The position numbers were made by a program, and so were the translations under genes. A stretch of 36,820 nucleotides of DNA, from positions 1-36,820 of the forward strand of contig JADHYN010000003.1 of NCBI GenBank assembly GCA_016782425.1, given 5' to 3'. Positions 10,025 through 32,724 of this stretch are shown one piece after another; positions within the stretch are counted from its first letter, which is position 1, and each line of letters starts with the position of its first letter. This DNA is from Candidatus Omnitrophota bacterium (lineage in GTDB: Bacteria; Omnitrophota; Gorgyraeia; JABMRN01; RBG-13-46-9). The notes beneath the pieces are model-generated. The model did no database searches and had not been told where the DNA came from. It saw only the letters and a program-made list of their open reading frames with translations.

Positions 10025-11116
10025 TTATATTTGGAATACGGAATCAAAATCCCCGTACGGATTCGGTTCTTTTTCGGTATTCTGCGGATCCCAGAACCAC
10101 AACCCGTCAACGACAAACTTATATCTGTATTTTCCCGGCAAAAGGTAAAAGGATTTTTCCCAGTCGCCGTTTTTCTTTCTTTCCAGCAAGTTTGAGGTAT
10201 CCATTTTCCAATTGTTGAAATCCCCTACGATATACACCTCTTTTGCCTTCGGGGCATAAAACCGAAAAACCTTCTCTTTTGAATACACATTGCCGTAGAC
10301 CCCGTGCAATATTTTCCTCATTTCCTGGTAGATGTTTTCGCTGGATTCTTCCCTGTCAAACGCCAGGAGCTCATCTGCTAAGGCCAGATAATCGTGGGCT
10401 GCCCGGGATTTCGGCTCGCACTTAAAAATGGATTCCGATTTTTCCTGCGCCCACCTCAAGGATATATCGAATGAAATAATCGTTTTTAGAAGTTTATCTT
10501 TAAAGATATATTTGATTTTACCTACCATGCGTTCGGCGAAATCGGAATATTCGTCGTACATGTTGACAAGACCTTTTACGTGGGGGGCGTGATGCAGTTT
10601 TATCTTTATGAGCTCCACCATGCTTATTAGTTTTCCGACACCCATTATGGAAAAGGCGCTTGCCTCCACGGGTACGATTATTTCATTAGCCGCGCGCAGC
10701 GCATTGAACGTAAGGAATCCGAGGTTTGGTGGGCAATCGATTACTATGTAATCATAGGCCAAATCCGAACGATTTATCGCCTTTGTAAGTATCAAAAGAC
10801 CGTCTTCCCGTTCTTTAAGTTCATGTTCCACGGTGCTCATTATAATATGCGAGGGAACGATATCGAGGTTGTTTTCGAGGTTTGTCGCGATTTCCTTTAT
10901 CGGCTTGCCTTTGCGTATTTCATTTACAAACAGGCCAAATATGGAGTGAAACGGGTCGACCTTTAGAATGCCAAGGCCTATGGTTGCGTGGGATTGCGGG
11001 TCCATGTCGATAAGCAATGTTTTTTGGCCCTTTTGTGCCAAAGCGGCAGAGAGGTTTGTTGCGACAGTCGTTTTTCCGCAGCCACCTTTTTGGTTAGATA
11101 TAGCTATTATCTTCAT
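10025..11116 (-). CDS. ParA-family ATPase with C-terminal CBM48/AMPK-type glycogen-binding domain
   Basis: N-terminus ISNQKGGCGKTTVATNLSAALAQKGQKTLLIDMDPQSHAT; C-terminus FRFYAPKAKEVYIVGDFNNWKMDT...LLPGKYRYKFVVDGLWFWDPQNTEKEPNPYGDFDSVFQI. Confidence 0.9.
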   Translation of the reverse strand: MKIIAISNQKGGCGKTTVATNLSAALAQKGQKTLLIDMDPQSHATIGLGILKVDPFHSIFGLFVNEIRKGKPIKEIATNLENNLDIVPSHIIMSTVEHELKEREDGLLILTKAINRSDLAYDYIVIDCPPNLGFLTFNALRAANEIIVPVEASAFSIMGVGKLISMVELIKIKLHHAPHVKGLVNMYDEYSDFAERMVGKIKYIFKDKLLKTIISFDISLRWAQEKSESIFKCEPKSRAAHDYLALADELLAFDREESSENIYQEMRKILHGVYGNVYSKEKVFRFYAPKAKEVYIVGDFNNWKMDTSNLLERKKNGDWEKSFYLLPGKYRYKFVVDGLWFWDPQNTEKEPNPYGDFDSVFQI

Positions 11117-15362: not shown

Positions 15363-16316
15363 TTAATAGGTAGGTTTAATGTTTGTTCCTAGGAAGTGTT
15401 CACTTTCTGCCCTGAAACCCTGGATCCAGCCGTTTGTGAAGCCAAACTTCTCTATGGCGTCGATGACTTCACGGTATTCTTTTTGGTTTATTCTTCTCTG
15501 GATTTCGGGAAAATTTCCCGCAAGGTAAGTCGGATAGTACTGGCTCATGACGCTCAGGTATATATCTTTCGAGACCTCTTTTTTCAGGAATTTAAGCGTC
15601 TGGACGGTGCCGGATACACTGTTGGGGAGAATCAAAAGCCGTACTATCACCCCCTTTTCCGCAACGCCGTTTTTGTCTACTCTTAGAAGGCCTTTTTGCC
15701 TGAACATCTCTTTTATTAATTGTCTATTGTTTTCCGCATAGTCGGCCGCATGTGAAAATTTTCGAGCCGCCTCATCCCGGGAATATCGCATATCTGGTAA
15801 ATAGATGTCAATAATACCATCCAGAAGTTTTATAAGTTCCATGCTGTCGTAACCGCCTGTGTTGTAGACAATGGGGATATTGAGAGATCTTTTTATTGCG
15901 ATTTGTAAAGCCATGATAATCTGGTATGCGTAATGCGTGGGGCTTACCAGGTTTATATTGTGACAACCCATGCGCTCCAATTCCAGCATTCTTTCGGCCA
16001 GTTCTTCTGTTTCTATTTCCTCAAAATCGCTTTTCTGGCTAAAAGTATAGTTCTGGCAATATACGCACTGGAGATTGCAGTGGGTAAAAAATATGGTACC
16101 GGAACCTCGTACACCCGACAGGGGCGGCTCTTCCCCATAATGTGGTGAATAACTGTAAACGGCAACTTTTTCAGATGATCTGCATATGCCCTTTTTGCCT
16201 TTCAAGCGATTTATATTACATTTATGGTGGCAAATCCGGCATGGGTCCGTGAGCTTTTTAAGATGTGGTAAGATGTTTTTGATAAGCTTAATTTTTTTAG
16301 AATTTGCGGAATTCAT
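15363..16316 (-). CDS. Radical SAM protein, PflA-like (COG1313 type)
   Basis: 317 aa; THCNLQCVYCQNY radical SAM CxxxCxxC, N-terminal CRICHHKCNINRLKGKKGIC. Confidence 0.9.
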   Translation of the reverse strand: MNSANSKKIKLIKNILPHLKKLTDPCRICHHKCNINRLKGKKGICRSSEKVAVYSYSPHYGEEPPLSGVRGSGTIFFTHCNLQCVYCQNYTFSQKSDFEEIETEELAERMLELERMGCHNINLVSPTHYAYQIIMALQIAIKRSLNIPIVYNTGGYDSMELIKLLDGIIDIYLPDMRYSRDEAARKFSHAADYAENNRQLIKEMFRQKGLLRVDKNGVAEKGVIVRLLILPNSVSGTVQTLKFLKKEVSKDIYLSVMSQYYPTYLAGNFPEIQRRINQKEYREVIDAIEKFGFTNGWIQGFRAESEHFLGTNIKPTY

Positions 16317-17326
16317 CGCGCGGAATATTTTCGCGCCAGCGTAAAAATGAAGAGTCCTATCATGAATGCGCCGATAAACGCCTCGGAAGCGGCAAGAAAT
16401 CTGAAAAGGAGTGTGGATTTAGGGATAAAGTCGCCGTAACCTACCGTCGTAAAGGTGATTACGCTATAGTAGATGTAGTCTGTGATAACAGGTCTATACC
16501 TCAATGCCGGAGTATATATAATGGCCTTTAGCATAAAATAAGCCATCGTATATAACATGATTACAAAAAAGGAAGAGAGTACGATCCTGTGCGGCTTTTC
16601 ACCATAGCCACACAGAAGATTCATGATGGAGCTCGGCAGATAAGCCAGGTTCTTTTTTTTCTTAAGAAGAAGCCTCTCCATTGTTTTCTCCTTGAACGAG
16701 GCCCAGCTGGCATCATCGTATCTGCCGTTTGCAAGAAAATAACTTTTAAGATCTCGATACGCTTCTTCTGCGGAAAGAATGCCTTTTTCATTAAGTCGAT
16801 AGGTAGATAAGAATTTATTTGCTCTATGATGGAAATTCTTTTTTGAGAGCGAGATTGCTTGCAAGAGGTCAGTGCGCCAGAGCCTTGTGTTAAAAAGATT
16901 CGCATTCCACAGATCGCAACGACTCAGGTTTGCTTCTACAAGGGTTGCATTTCTTAAGTTTGCGTGCCAGAGCCTTGCGCCTTGCAGGGAACTTCTTGTC
17001 AGATCGCTCCCGTCAAAATTTGCGCTGGTGAGGTCACAGTCCGAAAGGTTTGATCCCAGGAGTTCGGCATTTTTCAAATTTGCGTCGAAAAGAATAGAAC
17101 CGGAGAAGTTGGCCCTCGCGAGATTGGCCTCGGAAAGATCTACCCTCGCCAGGCTTAAATTGCTCAAATCGACTTTGGATAGATTTACTCCTTTAAGCGG
17201 GGCGTTTTCCTTTATCAAAGTCGCAAGTTTCTCCCTGTAGGCGCTTCGGTTTTCTATGTGTGCCCAGCAGAACTCCGAGGCGAAAACTGCCTCAGCTTTA
17301 CATCCTTCGAATCTACAAATAGCCAT
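16313..17326 (-). CDS. Pentapeptide-repeat protein fused to a two-TM K+ channel domain, with N-terminal Cys/His motif
   Basis: CRFEGCKAEAVFASEFCWAH, about 25 A(N/D)Lxx pentapeptide repeats, then ITFTTVGYGDFIPKS pore. ORF track start 17338 is a TTG; ATG at 17326 preferred. Confidence 0.88.
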   Translation of the reverse strand: MAICRFEGCKAEAVFASEFCWAHIENRSAYREKLATLIKENAPLKGVNLSKVDLSNLSLARVDLSEANLARANFSGSILFDANLKNAELLGSNLSDCDLTSANFDGSDLTRSSLQGARLWHANLRNATLVEANLSRCDLWNANLFNTRLWRTDLLQAISLSKKNFHHRANKFLSTYRLNEKGILSAEEAYRDLKSYFLANGRYDDASWASFKEKTMERLLLKKKKNLAYLPSSIMNLLCGYGEKPHRIVLSSFFVIMLYTMAYFMLKAIIYTPALRYRPVITDYIYYSVITFTTVGYGDFIPKSTLLFRFLAASEAFIGAFMIGLFIFTLARKYSAR

Positions 17327-17334
17327 AGTGCGTG

Positions 17335-18045
17335 TCAAACCTTACTTCTTCGGGTTAGGTTTTTATCTATAAATTCAACAATCCTGGCCTGCGTGTGTTT
17401 GTCGATGTTTGTAAAGGTTATGCCCATACCGGGGTATGAGTGCAGTTGGAGTTCTTTATCGGCGAGCCACACGACAGTCCCCATCAGCGTGAGAGGTTTT
17501 CTTTCCCCCTTTAACCCCAGCTCCATGTAAAGCTGAGTCGAGACGGGAAATGTATTTTTCGAATATATGAACAACCCCTCTCCGCTCAGATTCAACATCT
17601 TTCCTTTCGAAAGCTTGGCATCGGTCGATATCCCGACTTTATATCGCACGGGAACGCTTACATCTATTCTCTTGAATCTTCTTCGTAGAGGAAGTTTGTC
17701 TACCTTGCTTGATAAGTCGAAACTTTTTAATGCAGCTTCTTCTTCGGAATGCATTTCAAAAACACCGTCCAATCGCGCCGATTTAAAAAGTTCTTTTATA
17801 TGCAATGGCACACTGCAGAACTTTAATATCCCGTTTTGATTAACGACGTTTTTGTAGGCAACGGTCAAGATGGAAAGGCCGTTATAGTCCACAATATTCA
17901 CGTTTGCAAAATTACAGAGGATTTTGTTTATTCCTTCCCGCAAAAGCCGGCCCGTTTCTTCGATAAAACCCGCTGCGTTTATGTCAATTTTTCCGGTTAT
18001 ATAGAGAACGGCGATATTTTTAAAAAACCTCTTCCGTATTTCCAT
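17335..18045 (-). CDS. STAS domain - PilZ domain fusion protein
   Basis: N-terminal STAS-like fold (FANVNIVDYNGLSILTVAYKNV); C-terminal PilZ RRFKR...NLSGEG motifs. Confidence 0.82.
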   Translation of the reverse strand: MEIRKRFFKNIAVLYITGKIDINAAGFIEETGRLLREGINKILCNFANVNIVDYNGLSILTVAYKNVVNQNGILKFCSVPLHIKELFKSARLDGVFEMHSEEEAALKSFDLSSKVDKLPLRRRFKRIDVSVPVRYKVGISTDAKLSKGKMLNLSGEGLFIYSKNTFPVSTQLYMELGLKGERKPLTLMGTVVWLADKELQLHSYPGMGITFTNIDKHTQARIVEFIDKNLTRRSKV

Positions 18046-18072
18046 TTTTTATTTCCGGCAAAATCGTCGCAA

Positions 18073-18216
18073 TTATTCGTCTCTTACAAATATTGTTTTT
18101 ACGCCTTTACCTATTCTTCTGGTATCCTTGCCGACGCCGCTAAAAGTTTCTCCGCAGCCGGTAATGACAAGAGTTGTAAAAATTAATGCCAATAATAATG
18201 CTACATATTTTTTCAT
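18073..18216 (-). CDS. Entericidin-like small lipoprotein
   Basis: 47 aa MKKYVALLLALIFTTLVITGCGETFSGVGKDTRRIGKGVKTIFVRDE*, RBS aagggggtacatt; below the ORF-track size cutoff. Confidence 0.75.
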   Translation of the reverse strand: MKKYVALLLALIFTTLVITGCGETFSGVGKDTRRIGKGVKTIFVRDE

Positions 18217-18788
18217 AATGTACCCCCTTGAGTTAATTGTTTTTCAACATATTGTTTAAGCAACTCCTTTGCAGGATCTATTGGCTGGTCCTTATATCTT
18301 ATTTCAAAATGAAGATGCGGTATAATGCCCCTCGAGTTGGCGTTACCGCTTTTGCCAACACATCCTATTATGCCACCCTGCCAGACCCATTGAGATTTTT
18401 TTATGGCTATCGTGTAGAGGTGGCCGTATCGCGTTTGCCATCCTCCCGGGTGATTTATTACGATAAGTTCCCCGTAGCCACTCGGGATAGAGAACGCTTT
18501 GGCCCAGCCGCTTTTGGAGGCGTAGACAGGGCTTTTTAATTTCGCCGCCAAATCCAACCCTTTGTGTTTTCTACCGCCTCTTCTTTTCGCGCCGAATTCA
18601 CCGTCCCCGTACACGTCGTTCCTGATAGGCAAATCCGCCGTAATTTCTATCTTCCTGTCTATCTCTATGGGCATTGCAAAATACGGTTCTTTTATCCTGT
18701 AAAACAACGGAAACAAAAAAGCCTGTATTGCAAATATAACTATTGCGATAAAGGAGATCGCGAGACATATTCTAAGGGGGCGTTTCAT
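18213..18788 (-). CDS. M23 family metallopeptidase
   Basis: 191 aa; HKGLDLAAKLKSPVYAS, GYGELIVINHPGGWQTRYGHL, PHLHFEIRY. Confidence 0.92.
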   Translation of the reverse strand: MKRPLRICLAISFIAIVIFAIQAFLFPLFYRIKEPYFAMPIEIDRKIEITADLPIRNDVYGDGEFGAKRRGGRKHKGLDLAAKLKSPVYASKSGWAKAFSIPSGYGELIVINHPGGWQTRYGHLYTIAIKKSQWVWQGGIIGCVGKSGNANSRGIIPHLHFEIRYKDQPIDPAKELLKQYVEKQLTQGGTL

Positions 18789-19465
18789 TGCTTGGCAATT
18801 ATTTTTTCGATATTCGACAATTTACCGTAACAAATCAGCGTATCATTTTGTAGTATCTGGTCGTTCGCCTTCGGTGCGGGAATCACACTATTTTTTCTCT
18901 CGATGGCTAGGACCAGTATATCGTTTTCCCTAAAACTGGAATCACTTAAAGTCTTGCCGAGATCCTGGCAATTTCCTTTTATACTTACCTCGGCTATTCC
19001 GTAGTCTTTGGCGATGCGCAATACTTCCTCAACGGGCCTTTTTTGGAAAGGCGGGCGCTTCTCCAGCCCGGATTCGATCTTGTCGTTTAGAAACTTCGTT
19101 ACCCCCTTGTGTGTCAGAATCTTGAATAATATGAATATGAGCAGTAAAACGATGCCTACGTTTGCCAAAAGGGGCATTATGTTGCTTCTGCCGAAGGATA
19201 TCACAACGGTTGTAATCACCGTTATGAAACCGGCGTTTCCCAGTATCATCAGAAATATGATTATTTTTCTGCGTATGTCGTTTTGCAGTACAAGCTCCGA
19301 ATCCTGGGTCGTAAATCCTGTGCCCGTAAATGCGGACAGGGCCTGAAAATGGGCTTTTTTCTCGTCGAGCCCGGTCATCCTTAAAGCCACGGTCGCTATC
19401 TTGACTACGAAAACCGATATTGCGATAATTAATATAACAGGAAGGGCAAAAATCAGATTGCTCAT
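18785..19465 (-). CDS. Membrane protein with C-terminal TrkA-C (RCK_C) domain
   Basis: ALSAFTGTGFTTQDSE TrkH-like segment, 3 TM helices, TrkA-C ending NDTLICYGKLSNIEKI. Confidence 0.8.
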   Translation of the reverse strand: MSNLIFALPVILIIAISVFVVKIATVALRMTGLDEKKAHFQALSAFTGTGFTTQDSELVLQNDIRRKIIIFLMILGNAGFITVITTVVISFGRSNIMPLLANVGIVLLLIFILFKILTHKGVTKFLNDKIESGLEKRPPFQKRPVEEVLRIAKDYGIAEVSIKGNCQDLGKTLSDSSFRENDILVLAIERKNSVIPAPKANDQILQNDTLICYGKLSNIEKIIAKQ

Positions 19466-19480
19466 GGACGCCTCCTCTAC

Positions 19481-19509
19481 AAAAAGAGCGGGTTAAGTAC
19501 CCGCGTTCT
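19481..19509 (-). terminator. Rho-independent terminator of corA
   Basis: GCGGGT(19488-19493)/ACCCGC(19499-19504) stem with TCTTTTTG on the minus strand. Confidence 0.7.
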
Positions 19510-19549
19510 TATCCCGCCACCAATCACTAACCACTTCTCGCAAAACTTT

Positions 19550-20521
19550 TTATAACCACTTTTTCTTTTTAAAGTATAAAAGCATTCCGCCTGCCAGGAT
19601 CGCCATGCCCGATAAGACGATAAAATACCCGTACCGCCATTCTAGCTCCGGCAAGAAACGGAAATTCATTCCGTAAATTCCAGTTATGAGCGTCAACGGC
19701 ATCATTATGGTGGCAATAATTGTCAGCACTTTCATGATCTCGCTTAATTTGTTGGATGTAACAGACAAGTATCCGTCCATGGCGCTGGCCAGCATGTCTC
19801 TGTAGGTATCCAGGTTATCGTTTATTCTTGCCAAAAGATCCGCAACGTCGCGGAAATATATGGAAAGCTTTGACGGTATGATCGGGTGGTAACCGCCTCT
19901 TGCAATAAAGTTCATGGTTTCCCGTTGCGGTCCGAGAATACGACGCAGGATCAAGACGTTCTCCTTCAAGTCGAAAATTTTATTAAGCAATTCTGAATCC
20001 GGTTTTTTAAACACCAAATCCTCCGCCTTTTGTATTTCTCCGTCTATTTTTTCCAGTATGGGAAAATAATTATCCACCAGCGCATCGGCCAGAAAGTAAA
20101 ATAGATACCCGGCCCCCCGTGACATGATATTTGTGTTTTTTAGGCATCTTTCCCATGTGCTTGTAATACTCGGGATAGGGCGTAGGTGAACCGTCACGAC
20201 ATAGTTTTCACCAATAAAACTGTCCACTTCAAGAGAGGTTGCCTTGTCCCTGTGGGAAGCCAGAATCGCAGCATGGAGAACGATGAAAAGATAGCGGTCG
20301 TATCGGTCAATCTTCGGACGCTGGATGGTTGTCATGCAGTCTTCAATGGCAAGAGGATGAAACTTAAAACCTTTCTCCAGAAGTGCCATGTCTTTCTGTG
20401 TAGGCTTTTGGACATCTACCCATAGAAGTTCTTCTTTTCCGCCCAGAGGCACAGTGATATGTTCTATATCCTTTACGATTTCGACGTCTTTGCCCTTTCC
20501 CAGTGTAATAGCTCTTATCAT
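19550..20521 (-). CDS. corA: Magnesium/cobalt transporter CorA
   Basis: 323 aa; terminal GIYGMNFRFLPE GMN motif and two TM helices. Confidence 0.95.
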   Translation of the reverse strand: MIRAITLGKGKDVEIVKDIEHITVPLGGKEELLWVDVQKPTQKDMALLEKGFKFHPLAIEDCMTTIQRPKIDRYDRYLFIVLHAAILASHRDKATSLEVDSFIGENYVVTVHLRPIPSITSTWERCLKNTNIMSRGAGYLFYFLADALVDNYFPILEKIDGEIQKAEDLVFKKPDSELLNKIFDLKENVLILRRILGPQRETMNFIARGGYHPIIPSKLSIYFRDVADLLARINDNLDTYRDMLASAMDGYLSVTSNKLSEIMKVLTIIATIMMPLTLITGIYGMNFRFLPELEWRYGYFIVLSGMAILAGGMLLYFKKKKWL

Positions 20522-20531
20522 GATTGAGACC

Positions 20532-20984
20532 TTATTTAGCGAGAAGCATGCTCGATACTATTTGGCTCACCGTTTTGCCGTCCGCTTTCCCCTTCGCCTT
20601 TTCCATAACAGCTTTCATTACCTTGCCCATTTCCTTTTTGCTGGTAACCCCGAGCTCCGATATCGTTTCCGTTATTATTTTCTTGAGCTCTTCTTCGGAT
20701 AATTGTTCGGGCATGTAGCCCAATAGTATCTCCAGTTCTTTCTTCTCCTTTTCTGCGAGGTCCTGCCTCTTGCCCTTCTCGAACTGCTCGATAGAGTCCC
20801 TGTGCTGTTTGACGTGGCGCTGGATAATCTTTAAAATATCCCCCTCGTCCAGCGCGCTTTTCTTCTGGTCTAACCGGGTTGTATTCATGTCCGATTTCAG
20901 CATCCTTAAAGTCGATACCTTGATCTTATCCTGTTTCTTTAAAGCGGCTTTACAATCATTTTCTATCCTTTCACCCAAGGACAT
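20532..20984 (-). CDS. GatB/YqeY domain-containing protein
   Basis: 150 aa; LRMLKSDMN, YMPEQLSEEELKKII, KKEMGKVMKAVMEKAKGKADGKTVSQIV. Confidence 0.95.
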   Translation of the reverse strand: MSLGERIENDCKAALKKQDKIKVSTLRMLKSDMNTTRLDQKKSALDEGDILKIIQRHVKQHRDSIEQFEKGKRQDLAEKEKKELEILLGYMPEQLSEEELKKIITETISELGVTSKKEMGKVMKAVMEKAKGKADGKTVSQIVSSMLLAK

Positions 20985-20994
20985 AGGTACCTCT

Positions 20995-21693
20995 TTATCT
21001 TTTTTTCTCGAGAGCCCTGGAAAGCCACACGCTTATTTCGTAGAGCACCAAAAGCGGAATCGCCAGAAGAACTTGCGTTATTACATCCGGCGGCGTTAAG
21101 AAAGCGGCCAGAATAAATAACAAAACGACAAAATACCTTCTTTTCCGCCTCAGCATCCGGGAATTCACCAGACCCAATCTTGTTAAAAGAACAATAAATA
21201 ACGGCGTCTCAAAAGCTATTGAGAAAGCCAGAATTAGGAAAACGCTGAAAGATATATATCTCGATACGGATATAAACGGCCTTATTAAATCCGAAGAAAA
21301 GCCGAGGAGAAAACTCATAGCGGCCGGCAGTGCGATAAAATATGATAAGGCCGCTCCGGCTGCGAACAAAAATATGCTTGAAACAAAATAGATGATAAAG
21401 ACACGCTTTTCTCTCATATCCAGGGCCACCCACACAAACCGCAAGAGGTTATATATAATTATAGGTGCGGATAGAACGATGCCGCCAAAAAGAGAAATCT
21501 TTAAATAAGAGAGAAACGCCTCTTCAGGGCTTATAAATACGAGAGGCTTTGCGTATTTCGCAAGGTACCCCAGGGTCTTCTCAGCGTATGTATATGAAAG
21601 AGCACTTAATGCAATTACCGAAATAATCGAAAAAAGCAGCCTTCTTCTTAATTCCTCCAGATGCGCGAAGATCGATTTTTTTTCATCAGCCAT
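20995..21693 (-). CDS. tatC: Sec-independent protein translocase TatC
   Basis: 232 aa; HLEELRRRLL, FALPAAMSFLLGF-like segment, ETPLFIVLLTRLGLV, AAFLTPPDVITQ. Confidence 0.96.
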   Translation of the reverse strand: MADEKKSIFAHLEELRRRLLFSIISVIALSALSYTYAEKTLGYLAKYAKPLVFISPEEAFLSYLKISLFGGIVLSAPIIIYNLLRFVWVALDMREKRVFIIYFVSSIFLFAAGAALSYFIALPAAMSFLLGFSSDLIRPFISVSRYISFSVFLILAFSIAFETPLFIVLLTRLGLVNSRMLRRKRRYFVVLLFILAAFLTPPDVITQVLLAIPLLVLYEISVWLSRALEKKR

Positions 21694-21720
21694 GTATTAC
21701 AAATCTTTGGCGCAGGATCT

Positions 21721-21888
21721 CTATTTGTCGCTCTTTTTATCATCTCTTTCGGATTCGCCGCTTGCCTTTTTGAATTCTCGGATCGCCTTTCCCAGGGCCC
21801 TGCCAATTTCGGGAAGCTTCGCGGCGCCAAATACCAAAAGCACGATCAGCAATATAAGAATAAGTTCCCAGAAACCTATAGTCGGCAT
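21721..21888 (-). CDS. tatA: Twin-arginine translocase TatA/E
   Basis: 55 aa [55 protein letters not shown]; below ORF-track cutoff. Confidence 0.93.
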
Positions 21889-21889
21889 C

Positions 21890-22360
21890 TTAATCCCCTT
21901 TTTTTGAAAATATACGTTTGTACCACGGTCTATAATCTATAATAAGCTTCCCGGCAAGATGATCGACCTCATGCTGTATGGCACGCGCGGTTAAGCCGTG
22001 AAAAGTTTTCGTGCACTCTTTATCGTTTTCGTCGATATACGAAACCGTAATCTCCTCCGCTCTTCGGACATTTATGGATTTTTCCGGCACGCTGAGGCAG
22101 CCCTCCTCCAACGAAGAACTCCCCTTTTTTGCGGTAATCTTCGGATTGACCATTTTCAATAGTCCTTTACCCACATCCACGATGATGACCTTTTTGGAAA
22201 TGCCGACCTGAGGTGCGGCGAAGCCAATCCCCCCAGCCGCATACATTGTTGTAGCCATGTCCGAGGCAAGTTGCTTTTCGGTTTCGCCGAAGCCATTAAG
22301 CATTTCGCATTTTTTTCGCAATATGAAGTTGGGATGTTTTTTGATATTTAAATCTGACAT
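21890..22360 (-). CDS. def: Peptide deformylase
   Basis: 156 aa; [27 protein letters not shown]. Confidence 0.96.
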
Positions 22361-22362
22361 GA

Positions 22363-22716
22363 TTACTTTTTTACGATTTTATTTTTGTCGTTGACGTATA
22401 CAATTTTCGTTTTGAGGTTCTGGACTTCCTTTGCCTCTACCAGCGCCTTGGATATAACGATTACAGTATCACCTGCTTCTCCGAGCCGTGCCGCCGGGCC
22501 GTACAACACGACCTCACCCGAATCTGCGCGCTCTTCTATTGCGTAAGTCTCGAACCGCGAACCGTTATTAAGGTTTAGAACCTGGACAATTTCGTTCGGA
22601 TAGATGTTGCTTGCTTCGAGGATCTTTTTATCTACCCCTATACTCCCCTGATAGTGAAGATCCGTTTTTGTGATACGGGCCTTATGGATTTTCGATTTGC
22701 ACATTATCCTGAGCAT
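22363..22716 (-). CDS. panD: Aspartate 1-decarboxylase
   Basis: 117 aa; KSKIHKARITKTDLHYQGSIGVD (Gly-Ser self-cleavage) and GPAARLGEAGDTVIV. Confidence 0.95.
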   Translation of the reverse strand: MLRIMCKSKIHKARITKTDLHYQGSIGVDKKILEASNIYPNEIVQVLNLNNGSRFETYAIEERADSGEVVLYGPAARLGEAGDTVIVISKALVEAKEVQNLKTKIVYVNDKNKIVKK

Positions 22717-22725
22717 GTATGATTC

Positions 22726-23058
22726 CTATTCTTCTATGATGTTTGTGAGATTTTTTCCGTCGAAATATAGCTTCTTTGTCTTCGAAAGGTAACCCGCATC
22801 AACCGGTAGAGATGAATATCGCCCGCGATAAACCCACTCTTCCCTTGCGCCGCCCCACCTTTTTTCGTCAGTTACATAATTTACCTGGTCCGGGTCTCCC
22901 CAGAGCTCTTTTACCTTGTCCTTTCTCATGCCGATCTTTACCGAATCGGTTCCGATGGGGCGTTTAATTATATCTTCGGGCGTGGGTATTTCCATGTCCG
23001 CGCACCCCGTGATACAGAAAAGATACGCAAACACCAATAATAGTTTTAACGTATTCAA
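22726..23058 (-). CDS. Lipoprotein, SmpA/BamE-like outer-membrane assembly fold
   Basis: VKIGMRKDKVKELWGDPDQVNYV; lipobox FCITGC. Start proposed as TTG at 23058 preceded by aaaggag. Confidence 0.65.
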   Translation of the reverse strand: MNTLKLLLVFAYLFCITGCADMEIPTPEDIIKRPIGTDSVKIGMRKDKVKELWGDPDQVNYVTDEKRWGGAREEWVYRGRYSSLPVDAGYLSKTKKLYFDGKNLTNIIEE

Positions 23059-23062
23059 TTTA

Positions 23063-23458
23063 TTATTCTCCTTTCTCGCCTTTCTCTTCCCCTTTTTCGT
23101 ACAACAGATCACAGAAAAATTTAAGAAACGTATTTTTATTATCTTCTTCAATTTTCGTGAATTCACACCCAATGTTGTAGGGAGCCCCGTCTTCGGAGGA
23201 GAGCTTTTTTTTCCACACGACCTTTGCCTTGGCGTGAATAGGGCTTGGGGTATTTGGTATCTCGATCTTGAGCTCGGTTTCGTCGTTTATGTTTATGCCT
23301 TCATCCTTGATTTCGAGCCTTAGCCCGTGGGGCGTGATATCCTTGGTTGTTGTTTGGCATATAACATTATTCTTGTTTATGAGGCGTATTTTTAAAGGAG
23401 TTTTAACCCTTAAATACCTTCTTCTTTCCTGACCAGGCTTTGTCATAAGAACCCCCAT
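23063..23458 (-). CDS. PilZ domain protein
   Basis: ERRRYLRVKTPLKIRL ... TKDITPHGLRLEI. Confidence 0.8.
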   Translation of the reverse strand: MGVLMTKPGQERRRYLRVKTPLKIRLINKNNVICQTTTKDITPHGLRLEIKDEGININDETELKIEIPNTPSPIHAKAKVVWKKKLSSEDGAPYNIGCEFTKIEEDNKNTFLKFFCDLLYEKGEEKGEKGE

Positions 23459-23492
23459 TTTTTTGACAGTATATCATAATTATAATGTAACG

Positions 23493-25784
23493 TCAAGGCG
23501 AAGCGCTATTTCGCTTCACACCGGCAAGCAAAAGCGCCAGGCTTACCAAGTTCAGCCCGGCAAGCAAGATACATGTTGTCGAAATGCCCACAATCGGCAC
23601 AAAAAACGAACTTAAAAGAAGCGCTCCGACAAAGGAACCGAGAAGATCTACGGCATAGGTTATACCTGCTGTTTTTCCTATCGCGCCGCTACTCCCAAAA
23701 CATATCTTATTAGCCAGCGGATATTGGATTCCGCCGACAAAACCCGCTATAAACGGCAGTACCGCGAAGATATTCGCGCCAAGCCCCCGAGATACCCCCC
23801 CAAACGGTGATGAAGCAAAAACCTTGAAAGCGAGAAGTAATATGAGGGGATAAATAAAAACAAAAACCTGCACAATAGTGTACGTTTTGTATGGGCGTGA
23901 AATCGTCGTCAGCTTACGTGTTATGTAAAGACTGCCCAGATACAGGCCGAACATAAACGAAGTTATAATAATCCCGATTTTATAGTAAAGGTATCCATAT
24001 ATGATCTGGAAAGCCAGGACTATGAGTATCTCGAACGAAATTTCGCTTAGGCCGGTTGTGCCGAGGGCCAAAAGTGTTGCTTCCCTTCGGAAGTTTTTCG
24101 TGCGGCGTCTGGTAAGAAAGACGATGAATAATAAAGCGAAAAAGAAAAACGTCCCACACAAGAGGACTTTCCGTGTGAAAAACATGAAAAATTTTGAAAG
24201 TTGAAAACTGAAATAAGTGCTCCACAAGACCATGTCGTAGAAATAAGATACTGGATAAAAATCCATATTCTTCCGCACACCCCCGGCTTGATTTATGGCC
24301 CGATACAGATAATCGATTCTCTCGTCCGACAGCTTGGAAAATAAATAATAGTCGCGCACGTAGATTGTTTTTATGCCTCTTTGCTCAAGTCGTTTTATTA
24401 TATCCTCGGGGTTTAACGAAATCACTCCTTTTTTATTTGCAAGAATAAAATAAGCCGTATCCCCCGGAACAATCTTCACTTCCTGAAATTCGGCCCGCGC
24501 CGTCTCAAAAATAGTCTTCAGGAAAAGCGACTGTTCTCTACTCAAATAATTTTCACTCGAGCCGACGCTGAAACTGACCACTGCGTTTTCGCTGAGTATC
24601 TTTTTTACTTCCTTAAAGAATTCCTCGGTGTAGAATCTGTTGATTTGCGCCGTGTAGGGATTCGGTAAGTTTATAATGACTGCATCATACGACTTTTCGG
24701 TATCTTGTATGAAATGCCGGCCGTCTTCATTTATAATGTTTACCCTCGGATCATCAAGCCTGTAAAACGGTTCATTTTTTAGAAATTCTTTCGAGAGCGA
24801 TATTACCAGCGGGTCAAGCTCGACGTAATCTACCGTGCTTACCGGGTATTTTAGGATTTCCTGCATTATTTGCGTTGAACCCCCTCCGATAAGAAGCACA
24901 TCTTTAGGATCCGGGCAAAAAATAAGTGAAAAGTGGACGGCCTCTTCCGAGCTGAGAGGATCGTGCGAGCTAAAGAGGAAGAGGCCATTATTAAAGAAGT
25001 TAAATTGCGTATCTTTCTCGGTTACCGTTATCCGGCCGTATATGGAATCGGTGCTTTTGAGAACTTTAAAACCTGCCCATTTGAACTCGAGAGATTTTTT
25101 GTCCATAAGTTCAATTTTTCCGGAAATCGCAAAAACAGCCAAGAGGAAAATCAGTAATAGCGAAATTGTTTTTAAATACTTTTCATTTTGAGCGGACTGA
25201 CGCGGCAATATGAACGCGGCCGAAAGCAGGTTTAAAAAAGACAGCATGAAAGCAATTTGCAGGGCTCCGAAATATCGAATCAGCACCAGACTTGTTACGG
25301 TCCCACCTATCATGGCGCCGATCGCCTCTAGGGTGTAGACACGGCCGATTCCCACGGCCGACGAGCTTTCGGAAATAATTTTACAGCCAAGCACAAAAAG
25401 AAACCCAAGTCCAAGAGAAATAGGGAACAGTGCCAGGCCGGAATTTGCAAGAAACGCCGGTAGTCCTATTATCTCGCCCACGCCAACACCAAAGAGCGTT
25501 CTTGTGATACGTACAAAAATAATGCTGGAAGGTATAAGGATGCTGAGTAGAACCTGAACCGCGGAAAATAAAGGCAATTTCCTGTCTATTTTATCGGCGA
25601 AGATGCTGCCCAAAAAACCGCTTCCTACCGCCCCGCCGAGAAGCCACAAGGCCAGTATGAAACCGAACGAGAGTTCATTCCCGTAAAAAGCGGTAAATAG
25701 CTCGCGGATCAATATGATCTGGCTGGATATGGCAGTTATGCCGATTACAAGAAGTGAATAAATGGTGGTTTTTTTTACGCCCAT
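23493..25784 (-). CDS. Membrane-fused spermidine synthase-like protein
   Basis: 763 aa; multiple TM helices flanking DVLLIGGGSTQIMQEILKYPVSTVDYVELDPLVISLSKEF and EDGRHFI. Confidence 0.85.
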   Translation of the reverse strand: MGVKKTTIYSLLVIGITAISSQIILIRELFTAFYGNELSFGFILALWLLGGAVGSGFLGSIFADKIDRKLPLFSAVQVLLSILIPSSIIFVRITRTLFGVGVGEIIGLPAFLANSGLALFPISLGLGFLFVLGCKIISESSSAVGIGRVYTLEAIGAMIGGTVTSLVLIRYFGALQIAFMLSFLNLLSAAFILPRQSAQNEKYLKTISLLLIFLLAVFAISGKIELMDKKSLEFKWAGFKVLKSTDSIYGRITVTEKDTQFNFFNNGLFLFSSHDPLSSEEAVHFSLIFCPDPKDVLLIGGGSTQIMQEILKYPVSTVDYVELDPLVISLSKEFLKNEPFYRLDDPRVNIINEDGRHFIQDTEKSYDAVIINLPNPYTAQINRFYTEEFFKEVKKILSENAVVSFSVGSSENYLSREQSLFLKTIFETARAEFQEVKIVPGDTAYFILANKKGVISLNPEDIIKRLEQRGIKTIYVRDYYLFSKLSDERIDYLYRAINQAGGVRKNMDFYPVSYFYDMVLWSTYFSFQLSKFFMFFTRKVLLCGTFFFFALLFIVFLTRRRTKNFRREATLLALGTTGLSEISFEILIVLAFQIIYGYLYYKIGIIITSFMFGLYLGSLYITRKLTTISRPYKTYTIVQVFVFIYPLILLLAFKVFASSPFGGVSRGLGANIFAVLPFIAGFVGGIQYPLANKICFGSSGAIGKTAGITYAVDLLGSFVGALLLSSFFVPIVGISTTCILLAGLNLVSLALLLAGVKRNSASP

Positions 25785-26908
25785 ATTCCCGCAATCTTGT
25801 GACCGCAGAATTTACATTTTGAGTTTACGATATTATTCTCTAACACGAAATATCCGACGCGATGAATGAGCACCTTTTTGCAGTGCGGGCAATGTGTGTC
25901 ACTTGCCTGTACCTCCGGAACATTCCCCATATATACATAATTCAGGCCCACATCCTCTGCTATTTTTTTTGCGTTTTTCAACGTTGCAAGCGGTGTAGGA
26001 GGTAAGTTCTTAAGCTTATACATCGGCCAGAAACGCGAAAAGTGTAGAGGTGTATCCCTGCCCAGGTTTTCTTTAATCCAGGCGCACATCTTTCTTATCA
26101 TGTCCGGGTCGTCATTCAACGTCGGGACAACGAGGTTTGTTATTTCCACCCATACCCCTTTTTCCCTTGTCATTTTTATAGTATCAAGAAGGGGTTTGAG
26201 TCTTTCCCCGCACACTTCCTGGAGATATTTGTCGTCAAAACCCTTTAGGTCGATATTTGCCGCGTCTATTACCCCGCATAACTCTCCGAGCGGAGTCGGA
26301 TTAATATAACCGGCAGTTACCCATATGTTTTTTACATTGTGCGCCTTTGCTAATTTCGCCGTATCCAGCATGTATTCGTAAAAAACGATCGGTTCCGAGT
26401 AGGTATAAGCTATGGATCTGCAATGACGTTTTCTGGTAAGTTTTATGACGTCATGGCTTGAGAGGTACGTGTTAGTTGTATTTTCGGGATATTCCTGCGA
26501 TATTTGCCAGTTCTGACAGAACTTGCAGCGGAGATTGCAACCGGCCGTAGCAATGCTAATCGATTTCGACCCGGGCAACATGTGATAGATCGGTTTTTTC
26601 TCTATCGGGTCGACATGAATGGAACACGGAAACTCGTAAACCAGCGTATAAAGCTTTCCCTCCTTCGGTTCACGGACTCTACAGAAACTTCTATCCCCGT
26701 CTTTGAGAATGCATTGGTGGGGACATAAAATGCACATTACTGTATTTTTGTCGATTTTTTTGTAATAGAGAGCCTCTTTAGTGAAAGCCGTCGTTGCGGC
26801 AAAGGATTTCTCCCCAAGAGCCCTGTTTAGGAATTTCGTGCTCATTAAGGCGGCACAAAAAAGAGCGCCGCTTTTTATGAATTGTCGGCGGGTAATATGA
26901 GTGGGCAT
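25775..26908 (-). CDS. AmmeMemoRadiSam-system-type radical SAM enzyme with Tat-like leader
   Basis: MPTHITRRQFIKSGALF leader; MCILCPHQCILKDGDRSFCRVRE; ATAGCNLRCKFCQNWQISQ; C-terminal CPHCKK/CKFCGHK zinc ribbon. Confidence 0.88.
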   Translation of the reverse strand: MPTHITRRQFIKSGALFCAALMSTKFLNRALGEKSFAATTAFTKEALYYKKIDKNTVMCILCPHQCILKDGDRSFCRVREPKEGKLYTLVYEFPCSIHVDPIEKKPIYHMLPGSKSISIATAGCNLRCKFCQNWQISQEYPENTTNTYLSSHDVIKLTRKRHCRSIAYTYSEPIVFYEYMLDTAKLAKAHNVKNIWVTAGYINPTPLGELCGVIDAANIDLKGFDDKYLQEVCGERLKPLLDTIKMTREKGVWVEITNLVVPTLNDDPDMIRKMCAWIKENLGRDTPLHFSRFWPMYKLKNLPPTPLATLKNAKKIAEDVGLNYVYMGNVPEVQASDTHCPHCKKVLIHRVGYFVLENNIVNSKCKFCGHKIAGIWA

Positions 26909-26916
26909 ATGCAATA

Positions 26917-26970
26917 AACCCAGCACTACTTTTTCGAACGTATTTTAAAAAGAAAAATTAGTGCTGGGTT
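26917..26970 (-). terminator. Hairpin/terminator between the TIGR04073-like and radical SAM genes
   Basis: aacccagcacta (26917-26928) and tagtgctgggtt (26959-26970), perfect 12 bp; weak U tract. Confidence 0.5.
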
Positions 26971-26987
26971 GTGTTAGAATCGGATTT

Positions 26988-27347
26988 TTACTCTACGTTT
27001 ATGTCGGCTTGCATCATCGGTCCTTTGTCGGGTGCTATCGGAGCCGTGACGACATCGGTAACACCTGAAGCCGTTCTTGCCATGGCTTTCAATGTTCCCT
27101 GGAAGGTGCCAGCCAAAAGACCCCATATAGGGTTGTTAGATTCCTTTGTTATGTCAACTACCCTTTTTGGAAGCTCAGTCCAGCCGAACAGAATGTTTTT
27201 GGTTCCTCTGGCAGCCTTGCTGCCGACATCCAAGCGATACGAAACAATTTCGTCTTCGACAGTAGTCGCACCCGTGTCAGCATATAAGAGAGCCGAAGGT
27301 ACCGCGAGAATTAAAATAGTTAAAACCGTTCCCAAAAATTTCTTCAT
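26988..27347 (-). CDS. TIGR04073-like exosortase-system-associated protein (paralog 1)
   Basis: Signal peptide plus KAARGTKNILFGWTELPKRVVDI; matches the family pattern recalled as K-RGxxNIxxGWxELPK. Confidence 0.75.
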   Translation of the reverse strand: MKKFLGTVLTILILAVPSALLYADTGATTVEDEIVSYRLDVGSKAARGTKNILFGWTELPKRVVDITKESNNPIWGLLAGTFQGTLKAMARTASGVTDVVTAPIAPDKGPMMQADINVE

Positions 27348-27404
27348 TATTCACCCCCTTCATAAATCTTCAATATATAATTACACGATAAGTGTATCAT
27401 AAAG

Positions 27405-29084
27405 TTATGCGTTTGTCAAATCATCCACACACCTTAATCCGATCCAGTCCCTTATCGTTTCTAACACTTCCTTGTTTGTTTTGTAATGTTTTATTTCATT
27501 TTCTCTGTCCGCAATTTTTCCCAGGAAATACCCGAGTCCCCTGAAGTATACGATGGAGGATTGTTTCTCTTCGATTTTGCTCAGTGCCTTCTCGACCATG
27601 TGTTGTATATAGAGAGGTGAGCCCATTTTATCCCTTTTACCCTGAATGATTACGAGTGGAAGCTTAAGCTTTTCGAATCCTTCTCTCGGCTGGAATTCGA
27701 GAAGCTCCGCCATTCTTTTTGTAAAGACGCGTTTACCCAAGCAAGATACATACTCCTTTTTCGTATTTTCTATAAGATTGAACGTTTCTTTTTTTAACAA
27801 ATCCAGGGTTTTTTGGTATCGTTTGTCTATTTCTTTCATGGCCTCGACGGTATCAAAAACGTATTGGCATTCGAAATCCAAAAGTGCCGAGGGCTTTGTT
27901 ACGCTTAATAACACCAAACCCCTTACGGGAAATTTGGAGAAATCGATCGTCGGAAGATAAGAACAGGCATCCGAATGCGCTACGATAAATAATTTTTCTT
28001 TGTCGACTTTCTCGTGATTCAACAGAAATTTTAAAGCACTTTTAATATCATTGATCTCATCCGATAAGCTTTGTGAGGTGTTGTTGCCTTGAGACTTTCC
28101 GATGCCCCGCTTGTCAAAACGCAATACAACATAGCCACTCCTGGCAAGCTCCCCGCTTATATCCGTGTAAAGTCCGGCATTTTCTCTGTCGTAAGGTCCT
28201 TCCCCGGCAACAAGGAGGACCGAAGGAAGCCTACCCTCTTTTTTCGGGATTTCGACGGTTCCCGCAAGTGCAATATCGCCGGACGGAAAAAGGACTTCGT
28301 GCGAATTATAAAGTTCTTTCTCGATTGCGTAATCATGAATGGTAATTTTTCGGGGGGACCCAACTTTTTTTATTACGAGTGCCTTATCGCCGATTCTGAG
28401 GCGCGCAATACTTTTATCCTTTTTTGAAATCCAGATGTGCGCTTGAGGAAGGGATTTCGCCTTTATGACTATGACTTCGGTCTTTATTTTTCTCCCATCG
28501 ACATTGATGTATTCGTCTCTTATGGATGTGAAGATAACTTTGCCGCCTGCCGGGGGCAGCAGAAGACCTCGCGATTGATGCAAGGCGTTAAACGATTGCG
28601 CCCCGCCCCTATTGAAATTGTACTTCTCGACAAAGGGCATGTAGGTCACCACTGATGCCTCGTCGAAAACCGATGTATTCCTGGCGTGTGCGATACCGGA
28701 TACAGTGCTCCATTTTGATCCGGACCGACCGAGAAAATCGAATGTTTTGCCGTCAGTTCTTATATAAACGGCATCCGTCATCGCGCCGAAGGTCTTACAT
28801 TCCTTGCTGAATTTCTCCAGCTCGAAATCCTCCCTATTAAAGACAATTTTTTCGCGGTCCAGCTTGCATTTTATCTTTTTCGGAAGAAAGCTGGTGGATT
28901 TATATATGATTTTGTCTTCTGTTTTATAACGGTCAATTTTCACATGGCCCACGTTTTTGCCGGCTATATCGACGGAATAAAAGATACTTTGATGTTTTCC
29001 TCTTTCAAGAACAATAAACGCAACCGCAACAAGAATGATAATGAATATTATAATGGCAACAAAGACAATATAAAAAGTTCTCAT
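27405..29084 (-). CDS. Membrane-anchored alpha/beta hydrolase
   Basis: 559 aa; N-terminal TM; GEGPYDRENAG, LRFDKRGIGKSQG, FIVAHSDACSYL, VIIQGKRDKMG. Confidence 0.8.
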   Translation of the reverse strand: MRTFYIVFVAIIIFIIILVAVAFIVLERGKHQSIFYSVDIAGKNVGHVKIDRYKTEDKIIYKSTSFLPKKIKCKLDREKIVFNREDFELEKFSKECKTFGAMTDAVYIRTDGKTFDFLGRSGSKWSTVSGIAHARNTSVFDEASVVTYMPFVEKYNFNRGGAQSFNALHQSRGLLLPPAGGKVIFTSIRDEYINVDGRKIKTEVIVIKAKSLPQAHIWISKKDKSIARLRIGDKALVIKKVGSPRKITIHDYAIEKELYNSHEVLFPSGDIALAGTVEIPKKEGRLPSVLLVAGEGPYDRENAGLYTDISGELARSGYVVLRFDKRGIGKSQGNNTSQSLSDEINDIKSALKFLLNHEKVDKEKLFIVAHSDACSYLPTIDFSKFPVRGLVLLSVTKPSALLDFECQYVFDTVEAMKEIDKRYQKTLDLLKKETFNLIENTKKEYVSCLGKRVFTKRMAELLEFQPREGFEKLKLPLVIIQGKRDKMGSPLYIQHMVEKALSKIEEKQSSIVYFRGLGYFLGKIADRENEIKHYKTNKEVLETIRDWIGLRCVDDLTNA

Positions 29085-29638
29085 CTTATATCCAATTCCT
29101 CGATCTTATATTTAAGCTCCAGTAGTTCGGCATGCACGAGCTTGACGAATTTTAATTTCGACTTTAAATAATTCAGTACCTCCGGCGGGCAATTTTTAAG
29201 CTGGTGGGTAAAGGATATGGAATCGCCCTCTTGAAGAAAGTTTTTCGTGATATCGACAATGTCGATTAAGGGTTCGGGTCCGGCCCCGATAGGATAGAAT
29301 GTGTCGACATACACGACGCGGTTTTGGGGGTCGTAGAACGCAATCCTCAACCTCAAGGCGTATATTTTTTTATTGGAAGCGTTTTTAATGGTTCCCCAGA
29401 TAATTGGCCTCTTGTTGAAAGTGCCTTCTTGGGCAATTTTTGCCCGGAGGTTTATCAGTATGTATTTTTCATATAACTGGCCGTTGAGGTCATGTATGGC
29501 TAGTTTATAAGTTCTTCTTATGTTTTTCCCCTTCCATTCAAGGTAGAGGTAAAACCCGAATATTGTGAGCGCGAGTACCGAGGCGATAATTAAAGACGAA
29601 ACCATTATTACGAGCGTCGGTCTTGGTTTAAGCCGCAT
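29081..29638 (-). CDS. Membrane-anchored hypothetical protein
   Basis: 185 aa; N-terminal TM and beta-rich exported domain (GTIKNASNKKIYALRLRIAFYD). Confidence 0.65.
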   Translation of the reverse strand: MRLKPRPTLVIMVSSLIIASVLALTIFGFYLYLEWKGKNIRRTYKLAIHDLNGQLYEKYILINLRAKIAQEGTFNKRPIIWGTIKNASNKKIYALRLRIAFYDPQNRVVYVDTFYPIGAGPEPLIDIVDITKNFLQEGDSISFTHQLKNCPPEVLNYLKSKLKFVKLVHAELLELKYKIEELDIR

Positions 29639-29650
29639 TTTGATACCTGC

Positions 29651-30181
29651 CTAAAGATATCCCCTTATATGGGTTTTGTAGATATCCCTCACACTATTGA
29701 AAAAATCAATATATTCTTTCGTTTTATAATCGGGGTATGTCCATTCAAGTGGCTCGAAAGTTTTATTCACAAACCAGAGTTCCAGATCCGCATATATGCC
29801 GCAGTCGATATAAATGCGGTGGCTTCGGTTTTTTGTCGTAAATAACACAAGTTTTGCCAGGGATATGTATCCAGGGTCGATGTTGATGGTACGCCGGTTG
29901 CCCTTGGAGAATTTCTTCTCGAGAGCGTTGGTGTATAATTTTATATTATAATCCCTTTTTAATGTAAGCAGTTTTTTAAAGCTGAAAAATTTACGCTTAA
30001 GATTTTCACCCAGCTCTTGCTGGTAATAATTCGTGCATGAAAAATCTAAAAAATCGGTTTCCTTATCAATCTTCCCGAACTTTTTTTCGAGAAAGCGCCT
30101 GGCGAGATTAAATTGGAAGGTTTGATTGGAAATAAGACCTATTATCAATTTTACAGGAGTGTGTTTTAAGGGTTCACCCAT
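29651..30181 (-). CDS. DUF4416 family protein
   Basis: 176 aa; FSCTNYYQQELGENLKRKFFSF, INIDPGYISLAKLVLFTTKNRSHRIYI, YPDYKTKEYIDFF. Confidence 0.88.
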   Translation of the reverse strand: MGEPLKHTPVKLIIGLISNQTFQFNLARRFLEKKFGKIDKETDFLDFSCTNYYQQELGENLKRKFFSFKKLLTLKRDYNIKLYTNALEKKFSKGNRRTINIDPGYISLAKLVLFTTKNRSHRIYIDCGIYADLELWFVNKTFEPLEWTYPDYKTKEYIDFFNSVRDIYKTHIRGYL

Positions 30182-30183
30182 TA

Positions 30184-30666
30184 TTAATGTTTCTGGAGTT
30201 GCAGATTATAGATAAAATCAAAAAGGTGTTTTTCGTCTGCATTTTGGAAGTCAAAAAACTTTATTCCTGTATTGAACAACCGTATTGAAGAATTTTTTTC
30301 GTCTTCCAGGGATTCTTCTGTCCAAGCAACTTCGCCCCGGGTCTTTACGATGCGGTCTTGCTCGGGTAGTTTTATTTCTAATCGGAGTGGCGTTCCCCTT
30401 TCCAGCTTTTCGTCCAAAAGAAGCTTTATTCCTTTCGTGGATATATCCGCGCTTTTGACCTCGACTTTTTTCCCGTTCATAGAATATCTTACCCCGAGAG
30501 AAATGTCTAGGCGCTCGACGCTTCTCCTTTCCCCGCCGTCCCAGTAGCCCTTTAATTTAACCAGGCGCAGCTTTCGCTGGCGGTTTTTTCTCTCATCGAC
30601 TATTATGGTTGAGAATATCATAACGAGTATAACAATTATTAGGACTTCTACAACGAAAATCACCAT
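30184..30666 (-). CDS. Membrane-anchored PilZ domain protein
   Basis: N-terminal TM; ERRSVERLDISLGVRYSM ... SADISTKGIKLLL. Confidence 0.82.
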   Translation of the reverse strand: MVIFVVEVLIIVILVMIFSTIIVDERKNRQRKLRLVKLKGYWDGGERRSVERLDISLGVRYSMNGKKVEVKSADISTKGIKLLLDEKLERGTPLRLEIKLPEQDRIVKTRGEVAWTEESLEDEKNSSIRLFNTGIKFFDFQNADEKHLFDFIYNLQLQKH

Positions 30667-30671
30667 ATATT

Positions 30672-31037
30672 TTAAGCGTTTTGCCTGGTATATTCGAGGA
30701 GGACTTTCCTGTCTTTGGCGGATATATTATCGAAAAATATGGCCACGTCGTAATGTACGATCTTTCCATCTACTATGACGGGATGTTCCCTGACCACAAC
30801 CCCGTCAGTCTCAATTTTTACAGGTTTCGGCTCACCGGAGGTATCCTTTTTCGTCTTGGGCACTATGAGGATGACCTTTGTCCTAGACATCAGCGGTATT
30901 TCCTTTTCCACTTTGCAATATATTCCGGAAGCGCTTATGTCAAGGCTTTTTGTTATTATCTCGATATCTCCGGATTTAACCTTTAACGATACATTCTCGT
31001 CTTTTAGCCTCGGATATTTTCTTTTTTCTTTAGACAT
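30672..31037 (-). CDS. PilZ domain protein
   Basis: KRKYPRLKDENVSLKVK ... SLDISASGIYCKV. Confidence 0.82.
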   Translation of the reverse strand: MSKEKRKYPRLKDENVSLKVKSGDIEIITKSLDISASGIYCKVEKEIPLMSRTKVILIVPKTKKDTSGEPKPVKIETDGVVVREHPVIVDGKIVHYDVAIFFDNISAKDRKVLLEYTRQNA

Positions 31038-31051
31038 GACTTTCCCCCGTT

Positions 31052-31396
31052 TTATCCTGGCGGCCAGGCAAATTTTCTGCCGCCCAGAAGATGCAGATGC
31101 AAGTGAAACACCTCCTGCCCCGCGTCTTTATTACAATTGATGACCAACCTGTAACCGGAAGATTCAATATTCTTCTCCCGCGCAAGTTTGGTCGCAATAA
31201 AAAATAGTTTACCAATAAGAGCGTTATCGCCTTTACCCACTTGGGAGATGCGCTCAATATGCTTGCGGGGTATTATGACGATATGAACTGGGGCACGCGG
31301 GTTTATGTCCTCAAAAGCAACGGCGTCTGGATCTTGGTATACTATTTTGGACTCAATTTCGTCTTTTGCTATCTTGCAGAATATACAATCCCCCAT
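31052..31396 (-). CDS. HIT family (HINT-like) protein
   Basis: MGDCIFCKIAKDEIESKIVYQD and EVFHLHLHLLGGR histidine triad. Confidence 0.94.
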   Translation of the reverse strand: MGDCIFCKIAKDEIESKIVYQDPDAVAFEDINPRAPVHIVIIPRKHIERISQVGKGDNALIGKLFFIATKLAREKNIESSGYRLVINCNKDAGQEVFHLHLHLLGGRKFAWPPG

Positions 31397-31436
31397 ACCC
31401 ATATAAGTATAATAATAAACGGCCCCGATTGCAATG

Positions 31437-31691
31437 TTATTTTGTGACTTTATTTACCAAAGACCCGATGCCTTCTATCTCGATCTTTACGGTATCGCCG
31501 AGGGCCATCTGCCCTACTCCGGGAGGCGTACCGGTAGCAATAACATCTCCTGGCAGAAGCGTCATAATGCCTGATACGAAGCTGACAAGTTTTTCAACAG
31601 GGAAAATAAGGTTTTTGGTATTTGAGAATTGTTTAAGTTTGCCGTAGATTGGTTTGTTGGAACCAGGCGGTATAAACCGAACTAATTTCAT
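31437..31691 (-). CDS. Internally deleted fumarylacetoacetate hydrolase (FAH) family protein
   Basis: 84 aa joining FAH N-terminus [17 protein letters not shown] to the C-terminal [43 protein letters not shown]. Confidence 0.7.
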
Positions 31692-31776
31692 TAAAACATC
31701 AGGTATGTATAACGCAGGATAAATAATGCACTATTTGCCTCTTTTAACTTGAAAACCCTATCCAGCAAGGCGGGAA

Positions 31777-32214: not shown

Positions 32215-32231
32215 GGTTTTGTAGGGGTTAG

Positions 32232-32275
32232 ACAAAAAAGAGGAATAAGCTATCTAGCCACTCCTCTTTTTTGCG
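32232..32275. terminator. Bidirectional-looking intrinsic terminator
   Basis: caaaaaagagga ... tcctctttttt stem. Confidence 0.65.
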
Positions 32276-32302
32276 CTTTTTAAAAGAAATCAAACAAAGC
32301 TT

Positions 32303-32623: not shown

Positions 32624-32724
32624 AGCTATTTCTCACCTCCTTTTCGATTTAAAGCTACTTTGATTATGAAGTATAGCACAATAAAATTTCTTTGTCAACC
32701 CCGTTAGGAATTATTTCTTTAGTT

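Follow-up and report, generated by a model that had tools for sequence, protein, structure and literature searches.

RESULTS

Layout of the gene string

Three neighbouring genes on the minus strand of an Omnitrophota contig encode a STAS-PilZ protein of 236 amino acids (17335..18045), a pentapeptide-repeat, two-transmembrane (2TM) potassium-channel-like protein of 337 amino acids (16313..17326) and a radical SAM protein (15363..16316). The contig (C38) is the whole stretch of DNA that we analysed, 36,820 nucleotides in length, and is called the window below. It belongs to a bin (G000) of 1.32 Mb that is 82% complete, and the closest homologues of the channel, which match over its whole length at 47-69% identity, are all from Omnitrophota MAGs. 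The main domains of the three proteins score above their Pfam cut-offs: STAS with 36.7 bits and PilZ with 53.6 bits in the first, Pentapeptide with 88.8 bits and Ion_trans_2 with 42.5 bits (cut-off 22.5) in the second, and Radical_SAM with 49.8 bits (cut-off 29.5) in the third, which also carries a CxxxCxxC motif (CNLQCVYC).

A preliminary description of this DNA had the three genes abutting or overlapping in one direction. The common strand is correct, as is the 4-bp ATGA overlap between the channel and radical SAM genes, but the STAS-PilZ and channel genes do not overlap. Homologues of the channel start near the ATG at 17326, which leaves a gap of 8 nucleotides to the STAS-PilZ gene; a TTG start at 17338, a mechanical ORF call that alone would give the 4-bp overlap, was rejected on the same grounds. 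The three-gene chain also stands, but the string is longer than had been described. Upstream on the same strand, with nearly all junctions abutting, lie the genes for a lipoprotein of 47 amino acids (18073..18216), an M23 peptidase recognized by Pfam (18213..18788) and, from Pfam and profile searches, a TrkH-like membrane half with a TrkA_C domain (18785..19465). The M23 gene overlaps the TrkH-like/TrkA_C gene by 4 bp and the lipoprotein gene by a 4-bp ATGA. Judging from gene spacing alone, the string is probably co-transcribed. Its arrangement is not a matter of chance, since the identical order recurs in many Omnitrophota.

The lipoprotein has a lipobox (VITGC), is conserved in 9 of the 9 loci checked and has no matches in Pfam. 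Its consensus, GC-GET--G--KD--R--KGV-T-F-R, has an entericidin-like look, and its gene is smaller than the usual ORF limits. The TrkH-like half contains a TGTGFTT motif and, with its fused TrkA_C domain, is a compact candidate for a K+ transporter or sensor. Two further minus-strand genes of the window were noted. One encodes a ParA/MinD-type ATPase with a C-terminal AMPK1_CBM (glycogen-recognition) domain (10025-11116), homologues of which (42-72% identity at the protein level) lie near the channel or the STAS-PilZ gene in several relatives. The other encodes a protein of 763 amino acids with a central spermidine synthase domain flanked by hydrophobic stretches (23493-25784), and is adjoined by an AmmeMemoRadiSam-like radical SAM gene (25775-26926).

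A second set of M23, STAS-PilZ, channel and radical SAM genes is found elsewhere in the bin, on the 90.7-kb contig C48, with 57-63% identity to the window copy. The GC content of this contig (0.41-0.47, compared with 0.40-0.45 for pieces of the bin) and its tetranucleotide profile are not clearly distinct from the bin, and in the channel tree its copy is not sister to that of the window. The set may be a paralogue or may be contamination. In its string a CorA gene precedes M23, a gene for a ParA homologue (72%) lies further on, and an ORF of 2173 amino acids adjoins the radical SAM gene (L076, positions 1-20000 of C48).

The channel protein

The preliminary description recognized a Cys/His N-terminus, a pentapeptide beta-helix and a TVGYGDF pore in the channel, and all three are borne out. 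The N-terminal C4-C9-C20-H23 motif (17258..17317), a putative metal knuckle, is invariant in 13 Omnitrophota homologues. The beta-helix spans residues of about 41-160 (16847..17206); it is identified by Pfam and modelled with a pLDDT that is mostly >90. It is followed by a helical linker, SAEEAYRDLK..ASWASFKEKTMER..LCGYGEKPxR (16577..16795), that belongs to no Pfam family and is highly conserved, with the ASWASFKEKTMER and GYGEKPxR motifs near-invariant among homologues. Pfam, the alignment and the model then agree on a TM1-P-TM2 pore domain and a C-terminus of RKYSAR, where YSAR is invariant (16316..16576); like the linker, the pore is highly conserved. The selectivity filter, TVGYGDF, lies at residues 294-300 (16427..16447), as read from the translation and the alignment. 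It reads T(V/L)GYGD across all aligned homologues, and the GYG is invariant.

The AlphaFold model has a mean pLDDT of 86 and a pTM of 0.66, and comprises the beta-helix, the helical linker, two TM helices and a pore helix; it is a monomer built on 13 sequences, so that the tetramer is outside its scope. The protein would presumably assemble as a tetramer and conduct K+. Proteins of the Pentapeptide repeat/Ion_trans_2 type from haloarchaea, Nostoc and Thermococcus have their domains in the same order and align with most of the query, at about 22-32% identity, and the Thermococcus protein also begins with a C..C..C..H pattern. Unlike the channel of the window, proteins of this type have no PilZ gene annotated alongside in the three loci inspected (L134, L135 and L137).

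Relationship to HalA

HalA is reportedly, from work of Tan et al. in 2025, the effector channel of the Hailong anti-phage defence. The best whole-chain Foldseek match of our channel model is the HalA-oligodeoxyadenylate complex (9nyi_A), with a probability of 1.00 and 313 aligned columns against a chain of 333 residues. The overall TM-score reaches no more than 0.31 (rmsd 13.5), a low value that probably reflects a difference in domain orientation. Both proteins have a pentapeptide beta-helix, a helical linker and a 2TM pore in the same order. The channel had previously been presented as carrying an unusual pentapeptide sensor; its design is not unprecedented, as HalA has the same architecture.

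Matches to HalA in sequence are looser. A HalA profile matches 12 of the 13 members of the channel family, where pentapeptide repeats draw generic matches, and the window channel scores 33.5 bits against the NCBIfam HalA equivalog, far below its cut-off of 250. For the linker on its own the match to HalA is weak, with hits from 2 of 13 members at a best E of 0.02 and an hhalign probability of 34, and no real match exists among solved structures. The linker and pore of a HalA-like protein from Priestia match the Omnitrophota channel profile with a probability of 97.3 over 133 columns, and this relative shares the GYG motif before TM1 and the TVGYG filter with the window channel. Its gene, on a Priestia megaterium plasmid, overlaps that of a HalB-like nucleotidyltransferase; both are below their cut-offs, and the pair (L136:3923-5526) is possibly a divergent Hailong system.

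In Hailong, poly-dA adducts of HalB block the HalA ion channel, according to a published summary (PMC13275509). HalB was not found in the window's own genome (82% complete), and across the 13 channel genomes none exceeded the cut-off, with only short sub-cut-off fragments among them. PADLOC assigned the channel to no defence family. We therefore rejected membership of Hailong: with no HalB partner the channel is HalA-like, and it differs from HalA in missing the curated cut-off and in its additional Cys/His N-terminus. Its locus differs from Hailong as well, with a STAS-PilZ neighbour and a housekeeping-like setting in which conserved genes such as panD, def and yqeY surround the channel; this is not a defence island.

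The STAS-PilZ protein and its c-di-GMP setting

The modelled structure of the STAS-PilZ protein matches the SpoIIAA fold and the PilZ fold of Alg44. The STAS part (17731..18036, by Pfam and alignment) resembles folds of the SpoIIAA/RsbV type in Foldseek, with target-normalized TM-scores of 0.75-0.86, and has this fold in common with anti-anti-sigma factors. It differs from them in its fusion to PilZ, and it misses the NCBIfam cut-offs for both SpoIIAA (34.8, cut-off 114.75) and the anti-sigma antagonist (32.7, cut-off 53.45). The phospho-serine site of SpoIIAA reads DYNGL, with Asn, in the window, and across the family the site is occupied by N, S, A, M, P, L, T or V. Such variability argues for a docking domain rather than a phospho-switch, and the classical anti-anti-sigma switch was rejected on these grounds.

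The PilZ domain (17365..17685, by Pfam) carries the c-di-GMP signature of receptors such as Alg44 and YcgR, with RRFKR at about 17668-17685 and NLSGEG at 17575-17592; unlike those receptors, it is fused to a STAS domain. Of 31 STAS-PilZ proteins, nearly all carry the signature (RxxxR and [DN]xSxxG); the C48 copy and that of genome G186 have G in place of S. From these motifs the protein is predicted to bind c-di-GMP, which the cell likely makes, given seven GGDEF domains over the cut-off in the bin. GGDEF is present in 13 of 13 channel genomes.

Five of the eight PilZ domains in the bin fall within 15.7 kb of the window (17365-33069), an island that is partly retained in two relatives (L086 and L096). 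The probability of this under random placement is about 5e-6, but genes of the same function are not randomly placed. Other c-di-GMP genes may recur nearby: HD-domain proteins with an HD-GYP-like motif, a label that we read from the sequence (HDIGK; DGSGYP in L006, L010 and L080) where the Pfam assignment is HD_5, lie between the channel and radical SAM genes in those three loci, and in L082 and L079 an HD-GYP-like gene precedes STAS-PilZ or YqeY/STAS-PilZ by one or two gene positions. A plasmid search for STAS-PilZ, which is the scope of our search outside the Omnitrophota, returned nothing. In the portion of the literature covered, STAS domain, PilZ domain and c-di-GMP occur together as terms. 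The titles and abstracts retrieved contain no case of a link between PilZ and a K+ channel or of c-di-GMP coupled to K+ conductance.

Conservation across the Omnitrophota

We surveyed 193 Omnitrophota genomes, calling the channel at >200 bits and counting STAS-PilZ where it was full-length. The channel is present in 13 genomes, STAS-PilZ in 58 (including G043, whose gene has an in-frame stop) and both in seven. This co-presence is not significant (Fisher, two-sided p = 0.064). Full-length STAS-PilZ is missing from 6 of the 13 channel genomes, and the channel is missing from 51 of the 58 STAS-PilZ genomes. Where both are present they are mostly adjacent, i.e. in G000 (both copies), G138, G186, G053 and G057, although an additional PilZ gene stands between them in G053. 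They are about 5.6 kb apart in G148 and on separate contigs in G061.

The preliminary description had proposed the conservation of the neighbourhood as a check. In 12 of 22 loci the gene immediately preceding the channel does encode a PilZ-domain protein, with both searches pooled and with the inclusion of L011, where the contig begins inside the PilZ gene, and G186, where the channel gene is divided between two contigs. In two of these (L082 and L011) the gene encodes a second, PilZ-only protein. The pairing is not obligate, however. On the channel tree the upstream-PilZ label takes about 4 changes, compared with 7.9 for shuffled labels, and the adjacency is mostly vertically inherited and repeatedly lost. 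In one family (f2) the same slot holds M23-channel-radical SAM in G007 and G027 (L077 and L081), M23-STAS-PilZ-radical SAM in G013 (L095) and STAS-PilZ-radical SAM in G130 (L094). Either gene can thus fill the slot alone, so the two are separable; obligate pairing was rejected, and gating of the channel by PilZ is left as a possibility only. The radical SAM gene holds its place with either partner and accompanies STAS-PilZ even where the channel is missing (L094 and L095), so it is best seen as a passenger, as had been suggested.

Among 32 loci, 12 have the M23 gene no more than about 350 bp from STAS-PilZ, and with the distance relaxed to 1.5 kb the count is 14. Ion-transport neighbours also recur, with TrkH-like and CorA genes in the clade of the window, and a Na+/Ca2+ exchanger gene that precedes the channel with an overlap of a few bases in L084 and L085.

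DISCUSSION

We consider it fairly probable (about 0.6) that the central gene encodes a HalA-like, collar-gated K+ channel, carried in a vertically inherited envelope/ion string beside a c-di-GMP receptor. The channel would be tetrameric and K+-selective, with two TM helices per subunit. Its cytosolic beta-helix and conserved helical linker would form a collar that senses a ligand or partner and, like HalA, switches the pore open or shut. The locus would be an Omnitrophota string for envelope and ion homeostasis (TrkH-like, M23, lipoprotein, STAS-PilZ, channel and radical SAM), a role with which the ion-transport neighbours, the peptidase and the lipoprotein are compatible. STAS-PilZ would be a c-di-GMP receptor with its STAS domain as a docking module, and may be co-expressed with the channel, have roles of its own and be a candidate regulator.

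One alternative is that the genes are mere neighbours in an inherited string, sharing transcription and no function. The vertical inheritance of gene order (fewer changes than for shuffled labels), the non-significant co-presence (p 0.064) and the unrelated roles of radical SAM, panD, def and YqeY are consistent with this, but tight junctions are retained over divergent families, and both ion-transport neighbours and c-di-GMP genes recur; we regard it as somewhat unlikely. A closer relation, in which c-di-GMP bound to PilZ makes the STAS or PilZ domain dock on the collar or linker and so open or close the pore, draws on the upstream PilZ genes, often overlapping or no more than 30 nt away, on the PilZ-only protein in the same position, on the adjoining HD-GYP-like genes and on the intact c-di-GMP motif. 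Against it, each gene frequently occurs without the other and stands alone in the f2 slot, the upstream-PilZ label changes about four times on the tree, and the region is rich in PilZ in any case. Direct gating is therefore unlikely.

A role for the channel as the anti-phage effector in a Hailong-like system, with a nucleotide or oligo-DNA ligand that keeps the pore shut and whose loss opens it, is very unlikely. The whole-chain likeness to HalA, the profile matches and the HalA/HalB-like pair in Priestia speak for it, but the HalA score (33.5 of 250 bits), the missing HalB, the empty PADLOC result and the conserved housekeeping string speak against it.

The preferred reading, a HalA-like channel in an inherited string, places the HalA architecture outside Hailong defence, in a mostly vertical, conserved locus of an uncultured phylum. 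The analysis also brings out a STAS-PilZ protein that bears the c-di-GMP signature and is encoded by 58 of the 193 Omnitrophota genomes sampled. It is tempting, though quite unlikely, that STAS-PilZ docks on the HalA-type collar and that c-di-GMP controls K+ flux and, with M23 and the lipoprotein, envelope growth. If the link between STAS-PilZ and the channel were true, c-di-GMP would be coupled to K+ conductance. The occurrence of this architecture outside Hailong suggests that collar-gated K+ channels may form a wider family, of which HalA is the version used in defence.
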